Shown here piece after piece: positions 266 to 27,903 of a DNA stretch of 49,648 bases. Every line of letters starts with the position of its first letter. Within the stretch, counting starts at the first letter, position 1. Origin of the DNA: Lentisphaeria bacterium (lineage in GTDB: Bacteria; Verrucomicrobiota; Lentisphaeria; Victivallales; Victivallaceae); contig JAGBWB010000251.1 in assembly GCA_017629975.1 (NCBI GenBank), forward strand, positions 1-49,648. Reading direction: 5' to 3'. The position numbers and the translations under genes are program-made. Under the pieces are notes generated by a model, which worked only from the letters and a program-made list of their open reading frames with translations, was not told the DNA's origin and searched no databases.

Positions 266-3200
266 ATGGATGAACGTGATAAAACAATGGCTCCTGATCG
301 TGAACATGCAGGCGGCAGTGCAGATGTTGTGTTGACCGTTCCGGGCAGTCGTGTGCGTAAAACGGAGGGCAGATTCTCTGTCGGCGATCTGATCATGAAC
401 CGCTACAAAGTCCTTGCTGAACTGGGGCGGGGAGGCATGGGTGTCGTTTACCGCTGTTTTGATGAAGTCAGCAACATTGAAGTGGCACTCAAGACCCTTT
501 CCCAGGAACTGGCAGCAAGCGGCTGGGAAATGGATACCATCAAAAGAAATTTTGAGTTGGTCCAGCAGCTGAACCATCAATATATCGCCAATTACAAGAA
601 TCTTGAACAAGATCCTGTTTCCGGCGGTTACCTTCTGATTATGGAATACGTTGACGGCGAAGAACTGCGTTATTTTCTGCGCCGCAAACAGGATGAGGGA
701 AGCTTCAACGAAGAGCTGGTGATCAAGCTGACCCATCAGATCGCTGAAGCCCTTGACTACGCCCATAAACGCCAGATCATCCACCGTGATATCAAGCCAG
801 CCAACATTATGGTTGACCGCAACGGCGATATCAAACTCCTTGACTTCGGACTTGCGGCACAGATCCACTCAAGTTTGTCCAAAGTCACCAAAGACAGTCA
901 CGAAGATACCAGCGGAACAGTTCCTTATATGTCCCCTGAACAGTGGATATGCAGACCGCAAACAGCAGCTTCAGATCAATATTCTCTTGCGGCAACTCTC
1001 TATGAAGTGTTTTCGGGTAATCCCCCCTTTGACAGTGCCGATAAAGACAATGTACGCAATTGTGCCCTCAACATTGTGCCTGAAATGCTGACCGGTGTTT
1101 CCCCGGCTATTGCCAGAGCGATTGCCAGAGCTTTGAGCAAAAATCCCAAAGACCGTTTTGCCTGTTGCTCCGATTTTGCCGCTGCGCTGGGGGGCAAGAA
1201 GATCAAATCTGCCAAAGTTCCGAAAAAGGGGCGCTTTTCCAAATGGGCGGCGGCGCTGATTATGATTTTTTTACTGGGAGCAGGGGGAGCGGGGTATTAT
1301 TTTACCAGCTCTGAAAAAGAAGCGCCCGTTCCTGCGCCTGCGCCGGTACCACCTGTGAAGTCGGAGCCCAAGCCTCCCGTTGTTCCCCCGTCAAACAATA
1401 TTTCAGCAGAATTGGAAAAATTGTATGGGGAGATCGTGGAACGGCGCTTTGAATTGAATCAAGCTATTGATGGGATCAATGCCAAAACTTATGATGCACC
1501 TTTTCAGGTACACATCCAAAAAATGAATGCCGCTTTCAAGCAGTTGGAGTCCAATTTGAACGATTTGAAAGTCACCACGGTAGCCAATTCCCGTCTGGCG
1601 TATCTGAAAAGCATGAAACGCAATGCCGAAACCCTTGAAAAAGAAATAAAGTGGATCAAAAAACAAGGTCCCGTTTGTGAACAGGCAAAGAGTTTGCGAA
1701 ATGGGGTCCAACAGGCGAAAGCAAGAGCCGGAAAATTCAGTAAGGTATTGAACTTTGCAACTTATAAAACGGCGTCGGAAAAACAGATTTCCGGTGAAAA
1801 ATATTTTAACAGTGGTGAGTTTGATTCGGCAATAAAAGAATGGCGTTTGTCAGAGAAAAATTTTCAGACGGCATACAGTGTTTGTCTGCAATCTTATGAA
1901 ACAGCGATCAGCTCCGCTGTCAGTGCGGGCAATTGGGAAAAAGTTCTCCGTGAGTCCGATGCACTTCTGGCAGTTATGCCGGATCATCAGGGGGCATTGA
2001 AAGCCCGGCACGATGGCAAGGAGGGACTCAAAAAAGCAAAGATTTCCATGGGGTTAAAAGCTGCACACCACGCCTTTGCACAAAAGCGTTGGTCTGATGT
2101 GATAACAAGAGCCAGAGAGGTTTTGGCAATTGAATCCGGTCATAGCGCAGCGGAAAAACTCATTACAGATGCTCAGGAACAAATCAAACTTGAGAAATTG
2201 AATAAAGAGCTGACCTCCGCCCGCAACGCCAAAACAGCAAAGAATTGGCAGCAGGTTTATGACTGCGCCGTTGCCGCCTTGAGGATCGACAGCGATAACG
2301 CTCAGGCGCAGGGTTTGAAAGAGGAGGCGGAAAATAATCTGAAGCCCACCCTTGAAATCGTTGCCACGGTAGATGGAGAGCGGGTCCCTGCTAAAGTCAA
2401 ATTCGGGAATACCGATTTTGATACGATGCAAAGGATTCAAAACTTTACCGAAAATCGCCATTATAAAGGAATCCTGACCTGGCAGACAGGTGAAACTGAA
2501 TATGTCGGCGAGGTCGATTTCACCTGCGACTGGCGGGGACCGAAAAAGTTGACAGTTGCGCTTAAAAAACAGGAATTTGCAAAAATCGATTGCAACGGCG
2601 TTTCACTTGAGATGGTAAAGATCAAAGCTGGAACTTTCACTATGGGGAGCCCAGAAGGAGAACTTGGCAGACATGGTACCGAAAAACAACATCAGGTAAC
2701 ACTGACCAAAGATTACTGGCTGGGGAAATTTGAAGTGACTCAGGCGCAGTATGAAGCAATTATGGGTAATAATCCATCATCTTACAAAGGCAGCAACCGT
2801 CCTGTGGAAAAAGTGAGCTGGGAGGACGCCAAAGAGTTTTGCAACAAGCTCAACGAACGCTATGCGGGGAAACTCCCCACCGGATACAGGTTTGATCTGC
2901 CGACAGAAGCCCAGTGGGAATACGCCTGCCGTGCCGGAACGACGACTGCTTTGAATAATGGAACAAACTTAACATCCGAAAGTGAGTGTTCCAACTTAAA
3001 TGAAGTAGGATGGTATGATAAAAATTGTGGTTCAGCTGGACACAAAGCTGTCGGTCAGAAGCGTCCCAACAATTGGGGCTTGTATGATATGCACGGAAAT
3101 GTATTGGAGTGGTGCAGAGATTGGTACGCTCCCTACACAGGAGATGCTACTGATCCTACTGGTCCCACATCCGGCTCGTACCGCGTGTACCGTGGCGGCT

Positions 3201-3310
3201 GTTGGAGATACAGCGCGAAGGGCTGCCGTTCTGCGGTCCGGTTCTGCATCATCCCCGGCCTTCGCAACAGCTTCTACGGCTTCCGCCTCGCCCTCGTCCC
3301 AGTTCAATGA
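266..3310 (+). CDS. Ser/Thr protein kinase, membrane-anchored, with C-terminal FGE-sulfatase/C-type-lectin domain
   Basis: The 1014-residue protein has an N-terminal Hanks-type kinase: glycine loop GRGGMG at 54-59, ATP lysine K76, catalytic HRDIKPAN from 173, DFG at 193-195 and a GTxPYMSPEQ activation segment. A transmembrane helix lies at about 327-346, followed by a Pro-rich linker and helical, TPR-like repeats (about 380-710). A small beta domain comes next, and residues ~775-1014 form an FGE/SUMF1 fold (AGTFTMGS, LPTEAQWEYA, GNVLEWC, GFRLAL). The start at 266 is preferred over the in-frame ATG at 167 because the first 33 residues look like translated leader. The kinase should be cytoplasmic and the FGE part outside the membrane. 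Codon use changes sharply in the last ~40 codons (see findings). The ligand and the kinase substrate are unknown. Confidence 0.9.
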   Translation: MDERDKTMAPDREHAGGSADVVLTVPGSRVRKTEGRFSVGDLIMNRYKVLAELGRGGMGVVYRCFDEVSNIEVALKTLSQELAASGWEMDTIKRNFELVQQLNHQYIANYKNLEQDPVSGGYLLIMEYVDGEELRYFLRRKQDEGSFNEELVIKLTHQIAEALDYAHKRQIIHRDIKPANIMVDRNGDIKLLDFGLAAQIHSSLSKVTKDSHEDTSGTVPYMSPEQWICRPQTAASDQYSLAATLYEVFSGNPPFDSADKDNVRNCALNIVPEMLTGVSPAIARAIARALSKNPKDRFACCSDFAAALGGKKIKSAKVPKKGRFSKWAAALIMIFLLGAGGAGYYFTSSEKEAPVPAPAPVPPVKSEPKPPVVPPSNNISAELEKLYGEIVERRFELNQAIDGINAKTYDAPFQVHIQKMNAAFKQLESNLNDLKVTTVANSRLAYLKSMKRNAETLEKEIKWIKKQGPVCEQAKSLRNGVQQAKARAGKFSKVLNFATYKTASEKQISGEKYFNSGEFDSAIKEWRLSEKNFQTAYSVCLQSYETAISSAVSAGNWEKVLRESDALLAVMPDHQGALKARHDGKEGLKKAKISMGLKAAHHAFAQKRWSDVITRAREVLAIESGHSAAEKLITDAQEQIKLEKLNKELTSARNAKTAKNWQQVYDCAVAALRIDSDNAQAQGLKEEAENNLKPTLEIVATVDGERVPAKVKFGNTDFDTMQRIQNFTENRHYKGILTWQTGETEYVGEVDFTCDWRGPKKLTVALKKQEFAKIDCNGVSLEMVKIKAGTFTMGSPEGELGRHGTEKQHQVTLTKDYWLGKFEVTQAQYEAIMGNNPSSYKGSNRPVEKVSWEDAKEFCNKLNERYAGKLPTGYRFDLPTEAQWEYACRAGTTTALNNGTNLTSESECSNLNEVGWYDKNCGSAGHKAVGQKRPNNWGLYDMHGNVLEWCRDWYAPYTGDATDPTGPTSGSYRVYRGGCWRYSAKGCRSAVRFCIIPGLRNSFYGFRLALVPVQ
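3170..3302 (+). other. Candidate DGR variable region at the 3' end of the kinase-FGE gene
   Basis: In the terminal C-type-lectin strand region, the residues normally variable in DGR-diversified FGE proteins are almost all encoded by NNC codons (TAC, AGC, GGC, GTC, TTC, TGC, ATC, ATC, GGC, AAC, AGC, TTC, TAC). The invariant framework residues (RGG, W, CRSA, R, GFRLA) are kept. This is what adenine-specific mutagenesis of AAC codons in a template repeat would leave. The end is G/C-rich, as at the 3' end of known variable regions. No template repeat or reverse transcriptase is in the window, so the assignment is inference. Confidence 0.55.
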
Positions 3311-3527
3311 CACACCCCAGTACTGGAAAGCGGTCTGATTGTGCCTGAGTGCGCGGTGCAGCGCATTGTCGGACCTGTCAGACATGTCGGACAAGTCAGA
3401 CATGTCGGACTCAATTGGTGCGCCGCACCCGACACCGCGGCGCTTCTGAAATCACTCGCATCTTAACGTATGACCGATACCCCAGCCCCTCAGTGGTAAT
3501 TGGTGCCATTCCACATAAAAAACTTTC
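3311..3527. other. Noncoding spacer between kinase gene and repeat copy B
   Basis: Apart from the 9-bp tandem repeat, this spacer holds short inverted repeats: TGCGC/GCGCA just before the tandem repeat, and GGTGCG/CGCACC just after it. No convincing gene or canonical terminator was seen. If the upstream variable region is real, structured DNA here could be relevant, because known DGR targets often carry a hairpin just downstream. Confidence 0.5.
3368..3412. repeat. Five tandem 9-bp units GTCRGACNN
   Basis: Five consecutive units of the form GTC(A/G)GAC plus two variable bases lie 58 bp after the kinase stop codon. The R position strictly alternates G, A, G, A, G. No credible gene overlaps it. 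The units have no unique spacers, so this is a simple tandem repeat and not a CRISPR array. Confidence 0.9.
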
Positions 3528-3693
3528 CATAAAGAATTTATAATTAAATTATTCGCTTTTTCCGCTCTTCCCGGACGCAAAAACAACCGCACGTCTTTTT
3601 TCCCGTTCCGCCCCCGATTCACAGGGGGGGGGACGGAATAATTAAATCATAAGGGCTTGATTTATATACTGTTTCATAGAATGGCATCATTTT
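3528..3693. repeat. Direct repeat copy B (about 165 bp)
   Basis: Second copy of the 1-165 sequence, in the same orientation. The CCGTTCC hairpin arm is conserved, but the opposite arm has drifted to a G run, which weakens the hairpin. The repeat ends about 18 bp before the start of a 58-codon ORF that has a strong ribosome binding site. Copy B could therefore supply that ORF's leader just as copy A does for the kinase gene. Confidence 0.9.
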
Positions 3694-8824: not shown

Positions 8825-10348
8825 ATGAAGAAAATAGCAGAGTCCGTACTTGCCGTCGTCGGCAAGGATTTGAACGGCATCAAAAGCGCCATGTGCATGA
8901 ACTCCGGCGATATTGAGATCTATCCCGATTCAGTTCACAAGATCGGCGATGCTGCCGTTATGATGGGACGCAACAGCGAAGAGCGCTTCCTGATGGTTGT
9001 CGCTTATTCCGAAAAGACCATGCCCGCCGGATTCGCCGGTGAAAAGCTCGCCATCGCTGACGGCGGCGCCGCTCTGGTGGGTAAACTTGACAGCACCAAC
9101 GCTGCCGCCCTGCGTAAATATTTCCCCTGGTGCGCTCCCAAAAGCCTGCGTAATGTGAAGACCACCGTGGGCTGCGGCGACCGTCTCGGTCTTGCCACCC
9201 CCGGACACGTTGCCGCTGCAAAGAAGTTTCAGGTTTCCCCTGTGATCGCCCAGCAGTCCATGCGTGAACTTTCCATGACCAACAGAACGTTCCGCTCTGT
9301 TGTGGATGATACCGTTTTCGGCGTCTTCAAGAGCGACTACCAGCTGGGATGGGGCGCCGACGGCGACCATTTGAAGACCATTCCCGATATTGACGTGGCT
9401 CTGGAAGCCGGTATGCCCATGATCACCCTTGACCTTTCCGAAGTGATGAACGCCGCCGCCGGCGACTGGGAAGACAGCAAGGTGGATGCCGCTTTCGCCG
9501 AAATGGCCGCCGACTTCAAAAAACGCATTGCCGACGAATACTTTGACAAAGAGTTCGTCATCGGCGAAAGCTCTGTCAAAATTGATGCCGCCACCGCACG
9601 CCGCTGCGCTGTCATGTATACTGCGGCTCTTGATTTCGCCGTCAAAGTCTACAATCATCTGAAGTCCAAACGGGGCGATGAATTTGATCTGGAAATTTCC
9701 ATTGATGAAACCACCAGTCCCACTCTTCCTTCACACCATCTTTACATCGTCCGCGAACTCCGCCGCAGCGGTGTTGAATTTTCCTCTCTGGCTCCCCGCT
9801 TCATCGGTGAGTTCCAGAAGGCCATCGACTACATCGGCGACCTTGCCGAATTTGACCGTCAGTTCAAAGTTCACGCTCAGATCGCCAAGGCTTACGGCAA
9901 CTACAAAGTTTCTGTCCACTCCGGCAGCGACAAGTTCGCCGTTTATCCCACCGTGGGCAGAGAGACCGGCGGATATCTTCACCTCAAGACCGCCGGCACC
10001 AGCTGGCTGGTGGCTGTGACCGTCATCGCTGAGCATGAGTGCGCTCTCTACCGCAAGATGCACAAAGCCGCTCTTGCCAGCTTCAACGACATGCTCAAGC
10101 TCTATCACATCACCGCCGACATCACCAAGATCGCTGATGTGGATACACTCCCCGATGCCGAACTTGTGAAGCTGATGGATATGCCCGAAGCACGTCAGCT
10201 GCTCCACATTACCTACGGTCCCATCCTCACAGGCGAACTGCGCGGCGAATTTTTCAAGGCCATGCACAAGCTGGAAAAAGAGTACGAAGCTGCTCTTGAG
10301 AAACACTTTGATAAACACCTTTCACTGCTGGGTGTCCCCGCTCGCTGA
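8825..10348 (+). CDS. uxaE: Tagaturonate epimerase-like protein
   Basis: 507 residues. The segments CGDRLGLATPGHVAA, QQSMREL, VFGVF...WGADGDHLKT and YKVSVHSGSDKFAVYP match what is known of the UxaE family. That enzyme interconverts D-tagaturonate and D-fructuronate, linking galacturonate to glucuronate catabolism in a metal-dependent reaction. The His, Asp and Glu residues in these motifs are plausible metal ligands. The start at 8825 has AAGGAA about 9 nt upstream; 8816 overlaps that site. It heads an otherwise housekeeping operon, an odd place for a uronate enzyme. The gene name is assigned by motif recall. Confidence 0.7.
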   Translation: MKKIAESVLAVVGKDLNGIKSAMCMNSGDIEIYPDSVHKIGDAAVMMGRNSEERFLMVVAYSEKTMPAGFAGEKLAIADGGAALVGKLDSTNAAALRKYFPWCAPKSLRNVKTTVGCGDRLGLATPGHVAAAKKFQVSPVIAQQSMRELSMTNRTFRSVVDDTVFGVFKSDYQLGWGADGDHLKTIPDIDVALEAGMPMITLDLSEVMNAAAGDWEDSKVDAAFAEMAADFKKRIADEYFDKEFVIGESSVKIDAATARRCAVMYTAALDFAVKVYNHLKSKRGDEFDLEISIDETTSPTLPSHHLYIVRELRRSGVEFSSLAPRFIGEFQKAIDYIGDLAEFDRQFKVHAQIAKAYGNYKVSVHSGSDKFAVYPTVGRETGGYLHLKTAGTSWLVAVTVIAEHECALYRKMHKAALASFNDMLKLYHITADITKIADVDTLPDAELVKLMDMPEARQLLHITYGPILTGELRGEFFKAMHKLEKEYEAALEKHFDKHLSLLGVPAR

Positions 10349-27731: not shown

Positions 27732-27807
27732 TGGAGCGAGTGACCGGAATCGAACCGGCGACAATCACGTTGGCAACGTGATGCTCTACCAGCTGAGCTA
27801 CACTCGC
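27732..27807 (-). tRNA. tRNA-Gly (anticodon GCC), copy 1
   Basis: 76 nt with acceptor GCGAGTG/CACTCGC, D-arm GCTCAGCTGGTAGAGC, anticodon loop TTGCCAA (GCC), T-arm GCCGGTTCGATTCCGGT and an encoded CCA end. It is identical to the copy at 27828-27903, 20 bp away, and cotranscribed with it. Confidence 0.97.
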
Positions 27808-27827
27808 ACCTGAAGGTTCATCAAAAA

Positions 27828-27903
27828 TGGAGCGAGTGACCGGAATCGAACCGGCGACAATCACGTTGGCAACGTGATGCTCTACCAGCTGAGCTACACT
27901 CGC
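27828..27903 (-). tRNA. tRNA-Gly (anticodon GCC), copy 2
   Basis: Identical in sequence to copy 1, with CCA encoded. It is the promoter-proximal member of the pair. Confidence 0.97.

Follow-up and report, generated by a model that had tools for sequence, protein, structure and literature searches.

A variable region of the diversity-generating retroelement type at the 3′ end of a receptor-like kinase gene in a Victivallales bacterium

The last 45 codons of a kinase gene in a Victivallales bacterium make up a variable region (VR) of the kind produced by diversity-generating retroelements (DGRs). The gene lies in the window, by which is meant the whole 49,648-nucleotide stretch of DNA that was analysed, and its 3′ end is DNA-homologous to VRs and to AAC-rich template repeats (TRs) that belong to DGRs from its own order and family, in agreement with the DGR target proposed by an earlier, sequence-only reading of this stretch. 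There is little doubt that the VR has a DGR origin as such. That the gene is a current or recent target, diversified in trans by machinery encoded in the same genome, is held with moderate confidence and is the reading favoured here. Under it, a template RNA with AAC or AAT at the ligand-face codons would be copied by a DGR reverse transcriptase (RT) that misreads adenines, and the resulting cDNA would take the place of the last ~135 bp of the gene (mutagenic retrohoming). The NNC/NNT codon plan would exclude stops and spare the framework, and RT and template, encoded at another site in the genome, would act on the VR in trans. Bound to a changing set of ligands on the cell exterior, the variable domain would set the activity of the kinase within.

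The encoded protein carries a Ser/Thr kinase domain and a C-terminal FGE-sulfatase/C-type-lectin-fold domain (Table 1), with a probable membrane helix between them, assigned from hydropathy. Pfam domains and hydropathy uphold the layout suggested earlier, of kinase, helix and external FGE/C-type lectin (CLec) domain; domain order and helix together suggest that the kinase lies inside and the FGE domain outside the cell, in a signalling role. The C-type lectin/FGE fold usual for DGR targets is recognised by sequence, both from the PF03781 match and from T. denticola TvpA, a DGR variable protein (PDB 2y3c, E=2.7e-39), which is the closest PDB entry by sequence match and ranks above the FGE enzymes. 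TvpA presumably has no kinase, unlike the window protein. FGE (sulfatase-modifying factor) enzymes share the same Pfam domain and fold family and have two active-site Cys: in the alignment of PDB matches the first aligns with variable codon TAC 3209 (Tyr) in the window and the second is kept, so that the pair of active-site Cys of a catalytic FGE is incomplete. Because one of the two positions is a variable codon, the domain is probably a binder rather than an enzyme, and catalysis is unlikely.

Table 1. Features of the window and of the DGR cassette on contig L074 of genome G109 (same order); window coordinates unless L074 is named.
Feature	Position	Strand	Basis or remark
Kinase-FGE target gene	266–3310	+	ORF of 1014 aa plus stop, starts MDERDKTMAP; ATG at 266, stop 3308–3310
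Ser/Thr protein kinase domain, Pkinase PF00069	404–1165	+	hmmscan E=9.4e-51; cytoplasm expected
Probable membrane helix AAALIMIFLLGAGGAGYYF	1247–1303	+	Top hydropathy segment, residues 328–346, between kinase and FGE
FGE-sulfatase/C-type-lectin-fold domain PF03781, probably non-catalytic	2609–3292	+	hmmscan E=3.1e-46
VR, last 45 codons of gene	3173–3307	+	Compared with the G109 and G070 TRs and 27 further VR-like ends
Variable codon starts in VR	3179, 3188, 3206, 3209, 3212, 3221, 3236, 3242, 3245, 3248, 3251, 3260, 3266, 3269, 3272, 3275	+	
Conserved VR 3′ end GGCTTCCGCCTCGCCCTCGTCCCAG, putatively in place of an initiation-of-mutagenic-homing (IMH) site	3278–3302	+	Strong conservation among relatives
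Strong hairpin, formed by TGTCAGACATGTCGGAC repeats, about 55 nt beyond VR	3360–3440	+	RNA fold about −32 kcal/mol, without shuffle control
G109 VR	L074, 30–165		At contig edge
G109 HRDC-domain ORF	L074, 321–833		PF00570, E=3e-15
G109 RT gene	L074, from about 781		Overlaps HRDC ORF; motifs IPIGNLTSQ, YMDD
G109 template (TR)	L074, 1745–1880		Sequence GSNRVIRGGSWNNNANNCQVANRNNNNPDNRNNNNGFRLALVPAQ

The VR codons read GSYRVYRGGCWRYSAKGCRSAVRFCIIPGLRNSFYGFRLALVPVQ, with the stop next, and they have the form of a DGR target: a stop-free stretch at the 3′ end of the gene, with variable codons from AAY (NNC/NNT). At the 17 VR codons that are Asn in the template of relative G109 or G070, the window has NNC in 14/17 and NNY in 15/17, compared with third-position C in 24.6% of codons elsewhere in the gene (p=9e-7). 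In a 42-codon scan of the gene the VR stretch was the most C-ending (29/42; next best elsewhere, 22/42). The sequence-only reading had remarked on both points, describing the variable CLec/FGE positions as nearly all NNC and codon use as changing abruptly at the gene end, and both are real. Three of the 17 codons are not NNC: AGA 3206 and AAG 3218, which may be framework in the template of the window's lineage (the G070 TR has AGG at the position of AAG 3218), and CTT 3260, which corresponds to AAT in the G070 TR. NNC density by itself is nonetheless weaker evidence than is apparent, because the framework codons of the VR are also C-rich (15/28), and it was rejected as proof of a DGR on its own; it is comparison with templates and relatives that decides the matter.

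Such templates occur within the order. G109 carries a DGR on a 3.4-kb contig (L074, G109:C126), in which VR, HRDC gene, RT and TR follow one another in a cassette of ~1.9 kb. The variable codons of its TR are nearly all AAC; VR and TR are 84% identical across 141 bp, and 21/22 of their differences inside the 45 codons lie at template adenines. G070, from the window's own family, has an RT end with a template (GSNRVNRGGSWNNNARNCRSANRNNNSPDNRNNNLGFRLAL) directly after it and a VR about 600 bp further on, which adjoins a fragment of a kinase gene. A third genome, G083, has a TR together with an RT and an HRDC-like gene; upstream lies an FGE gene end with a broken frame. In both G109 (L074:781–1890) and G070 (L118:3–506) the RT ORF runs on in frame through the TR, which lies at its 3′ end, and its tail there is FGE-like.

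When the window was compared with the G109 TR at codon positions 1 and 2, 24/37 adenines and 4/53 other bases were changed (p=7e-9), the concentration of substitutions at template adenines that the sequence-only reading had expected of a DGR. Taken alone, this test was rejected as non-specific, since C63, an ordinary paralogue from the host genome, passes it too (26/37 adenines, 6/53 other bases against the same TR). Because of that score, the adenine-site test by itself marks only the loop positions of the FGE fold; it is the third-base and framework tests that separate window from paralogue. Without any DGR, this would be an ordinary FGE end with a surface loop that selection drives to change fast, lying in C-rich DNA acquired by recombination or horizontal transfer. 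The same loop positions do vary in FGE domains that have no DGR, C63 departs from the templates at these very codons, and the C-richness of the framework codons also favours such an origin; even so, it is very improbable. NNC occurs at 6/17 and 5/17 of the codons in the own-genome paralogues C63 and C281, against 14/17 in the window, and over 51 aligned FGE ends NNC counts fall into two groups (10–16/16 and 4–8/16). Entropy at the variable codons of the 27 VR-like ends, window excluded, is 1.72, 1.55 and 0.82 bits at positions 1–3, compared with 1.47, 1.27 and 1.32 bits in seven ordinary FGE ends, a small control set drawn from protein or family searches. Moreover, both the family and the order contain TRs that share this framework.

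From 19 relatives, with the window left out and the AA start of variable codons taken from real templates, a template was inferred that predicted 85/92 of the window's non-A bases (7/92 changed), and A sites differed at 22/34 (p=2e-10). Third bases at the variable codons agree with this template in 15/16 cases. Against relatives' templates, the window VR is thus a near-repeat whose differences lie at template adenines. The comparison with gene G106:C2 is similar: nucleotide identity is 56% in the upstream FGE region and 96% in the VR framework, while at variable codons positions 1–2 are identical in 11% and the third base in 78%; in ordinary paralogues 28–44% of these third bases are retained. 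VR framework against upstream identity in the same domain is 94% and 61% for G110, 93% and 70% for G034:C96, and 93% and 73% for G025, with the proviso that most VR-like relatives were found via DNA similarity to the window VR or a TR, a route biased towards similar framework DNA. The framework residues noted earlier as intact beside the variable positions are encoded by DNA up to 96% identical to that of relatives. In most cases ordinary paralogues showed no rise of synonymous identity at the gene end. A mosaic of constant framework and variable codons might also be made by gene conversion among FGE paralogues, of which these genomes hold several, instead of by retrohoming. This too is very improbable: no gene end that could serve as donor, with framework DNA to match, lies elsewhere in the host assembly, and conversion tracts would not replace the first two bases of single codons and spare the third. 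Non-DGR causes, even when combined, are quite unlikely.

The location of the machinery is a separate matter. Neither an RT nor a second VR copy lies in the 49,648-nt window, as the sequence-only reading had stated of RT and template repeat. The host assembly is a draft (3.07 Mb, 404 contigs, 77% complete), and within it no second VR copy, no TR and no DGR-type RT ([IL]GxxxSQ, YxDD) was found. Its only RT match (G000:C9, L002:257–817), at a contig end, carries GVPFGAPTA/YADD and matches RT_UG26 of the DRT group; being UG26/DRT-like, without the DGR motif, it was rejected as the DGR RT. An RT similar to it is present in G042 (L040). Nor was a DGR RT found in the searched genomes of the window's genus, though several carry VRs. 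A template and an RT of the kind that the sequence-only reading proposed to look for in the full genome were found in relatives (G109, G070) and not in the host assembly, and the description of the gene as a remote or orphan target fits this outcome. The favoured reading is at its weakest in this missing RT.

An orphan VR would be one that the DGR of an ancestor or donor once diversified and that, RT and template having since been lost, is now inherited as an ordinary gene end. This is a genuine, if lesser, possibility. It agrees with the host assembly, in which neither RT nor TR was found, and with VR-bearing genomes of high completeness in which no such DGR RT was detected (G108, 97%; G106, 95%; G058, 94%; G035, 90%); T. 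denticola isolates with targets and without a core DGR have also been published (PMC4891356). However, the framework DNA is 93–96% identical to VRs of other genera and another family where upstream DNA of the same domain is 56–73% identical, and this, together with the agreement of third bases with the inferred template, argues for recent copying from a template. Absence of the RT from draft genomes is, moreover, weak evidence, because near-repeats no more than about 2 kb apart flank the RT in G109, L194, L195, L198 and L204; we infer that it tends to land on short, repeat-broken contigs of a type that metagenome binning drops, which suggests that draft genomes hide the RT of such systems. For a gene that is a current or recent target in trans, the host template is predicted to resemble GGCTCGAACCGCGTGAACCGTGGCGG...TGCCGTTCTGCGAACCGGAACAAC.

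The conserved VR 3′ end has no further match, at up to 3 mismatches, elsewhere in the host assembly. The hairpin past the VR may act as a terminator, or it may be associated with homing. A direct repeat of ~165 bp (95% identical, 1–165 and 3528–3693) flanks the kinase-FGE gene; it has no copy elsewhere in the host assembly and, being confined to this contig with no link to a DGR, was rejected as a DGR part. Because the contig starts inside this repeat, the assembly may lack a tandem copy of the gene. Elsewhere in the window there is a tandem pair of tRNA-Gly(GCC) genes (27732–27903; 96-bp units, 94% identical).

Similar DNA stands at the ends of other FGE genes in these bacteria. A search of 78 genomes of the family found it in G034, G024 and G025, with shorter matches in G042 and G043, and a search of 137 genomes of the order gave a match in 18 genomes. 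In all, 28 VR-like ends were counted in the order, on kinases, caspases and other proteins. The kinase-FGE layout with a VR tail recurs in G034:C46, G024:C43 and three genes of G106; the other VR-bearing proteins have a caspase domain, zinc ribbons or no recognised partner. G111 encodes two caspase-domain (Peptidase_C14) proteins with the same VR-type FGE tail (L079:5675–7672; L081:2595–4283), as in putative cell-death conflict systems. Two ORFs have tandem FGE domains, two in each (L076:6128–10168; L084:7620–9383), and in L084 both ends bear the VR signature. It may be conjectured, tentatively and with some doubt, that a dispersed, lineage-wide Victivallales repertoire of proteins for signalling and death (membrane kinases, secreted, caspase-fold and zinc-ribbon proteins), all with the same kind of diversified FGE tail, is served by one DGR template family, and that a small RT–TR cassette, whose template doubles as the in-frame C-terminal tail of the RT, drives it in trans.

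Other retroelements were encountered. The DGR-like RT of G022:C27 (motifs IALGSQVSQ and YMDD) was rejected as the window's machinery, its repeat (114 bp, 96%; near-repeat pair at L051:8234–8347 and 8844–8957) encoding a different, non-FGE target. The RTs of G122, G129 and G130 were set aside likewise, having a DGR-type motif and a different, non-FGE target beside the RT. DGR-type RTs with adjacent near-repeats of 105–137 bp were seen in G081, G122, G129 and G130 (L089–L092, L203); G129 and G130 have near-identical RTs beside the same target gene, with a VR that differs between the two. Two IMG/VR contigs, L189 and L190, contain an FGE template, a VR and a DGR-type RT (GNLTSQ, YCDD), with the same repeat pair in both.

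The window system is of a known kind, a kinase-CLec protein and probably a remote target, and what appears to be new is its occurrence in Victivallales: DGR targets with a kinase-CLec layout and remote ones have been described before, chiefly in cyanobacteria (PMC7517822, PMC10907252), and no earlier description of such a DGR system in Victivallales was found in a literature search that was not exhaustive. The finding adds Victivallales (Lentisphaerota) to the lineages with DGR-diversified receptor kinases and provides a concrete VR, a predicted template and a receptor candidate in which an internal kinase would be wired to an evolvable external binding surface. The cyanobacterial DGR variable proteins are alike in having an N-terminal Ser/Thr kinase and a C-terminal CLec domain with the VR at the gene end, and their remote members are, like the window gene, dispersed targets tied by TR/VR homology (PMC7517822). 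They are, however, mostly predicted to be cytosolic (PMC7517822), whereas the window protein has a membrane helix and a long linker between kinase and FGE, and its host is a Victivallales bacterium in whose assembly RT and TR were not found. Thiohalocapsa PB-PSB1 likewise has FGE/CLec sensors on kinase and other effector modules, support for diversification in trans, and incomplete loci; most of its loci have been shown to vary in nature, whereas the window VR is known here from sequence comparison (PMC10907252). T. denticola, the source of TvpA, the best match of the window domain among solved structures, has HRDC-type DGRs in which the HRDC accessory gene overlaps the RT gene, as in L074, and its remote and orphan targets are known (PMC4891356). 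L074 and L118 differ from these T. denticola DGRs in having the TR at the 3′ end of the RT gene, read in the RT frame.
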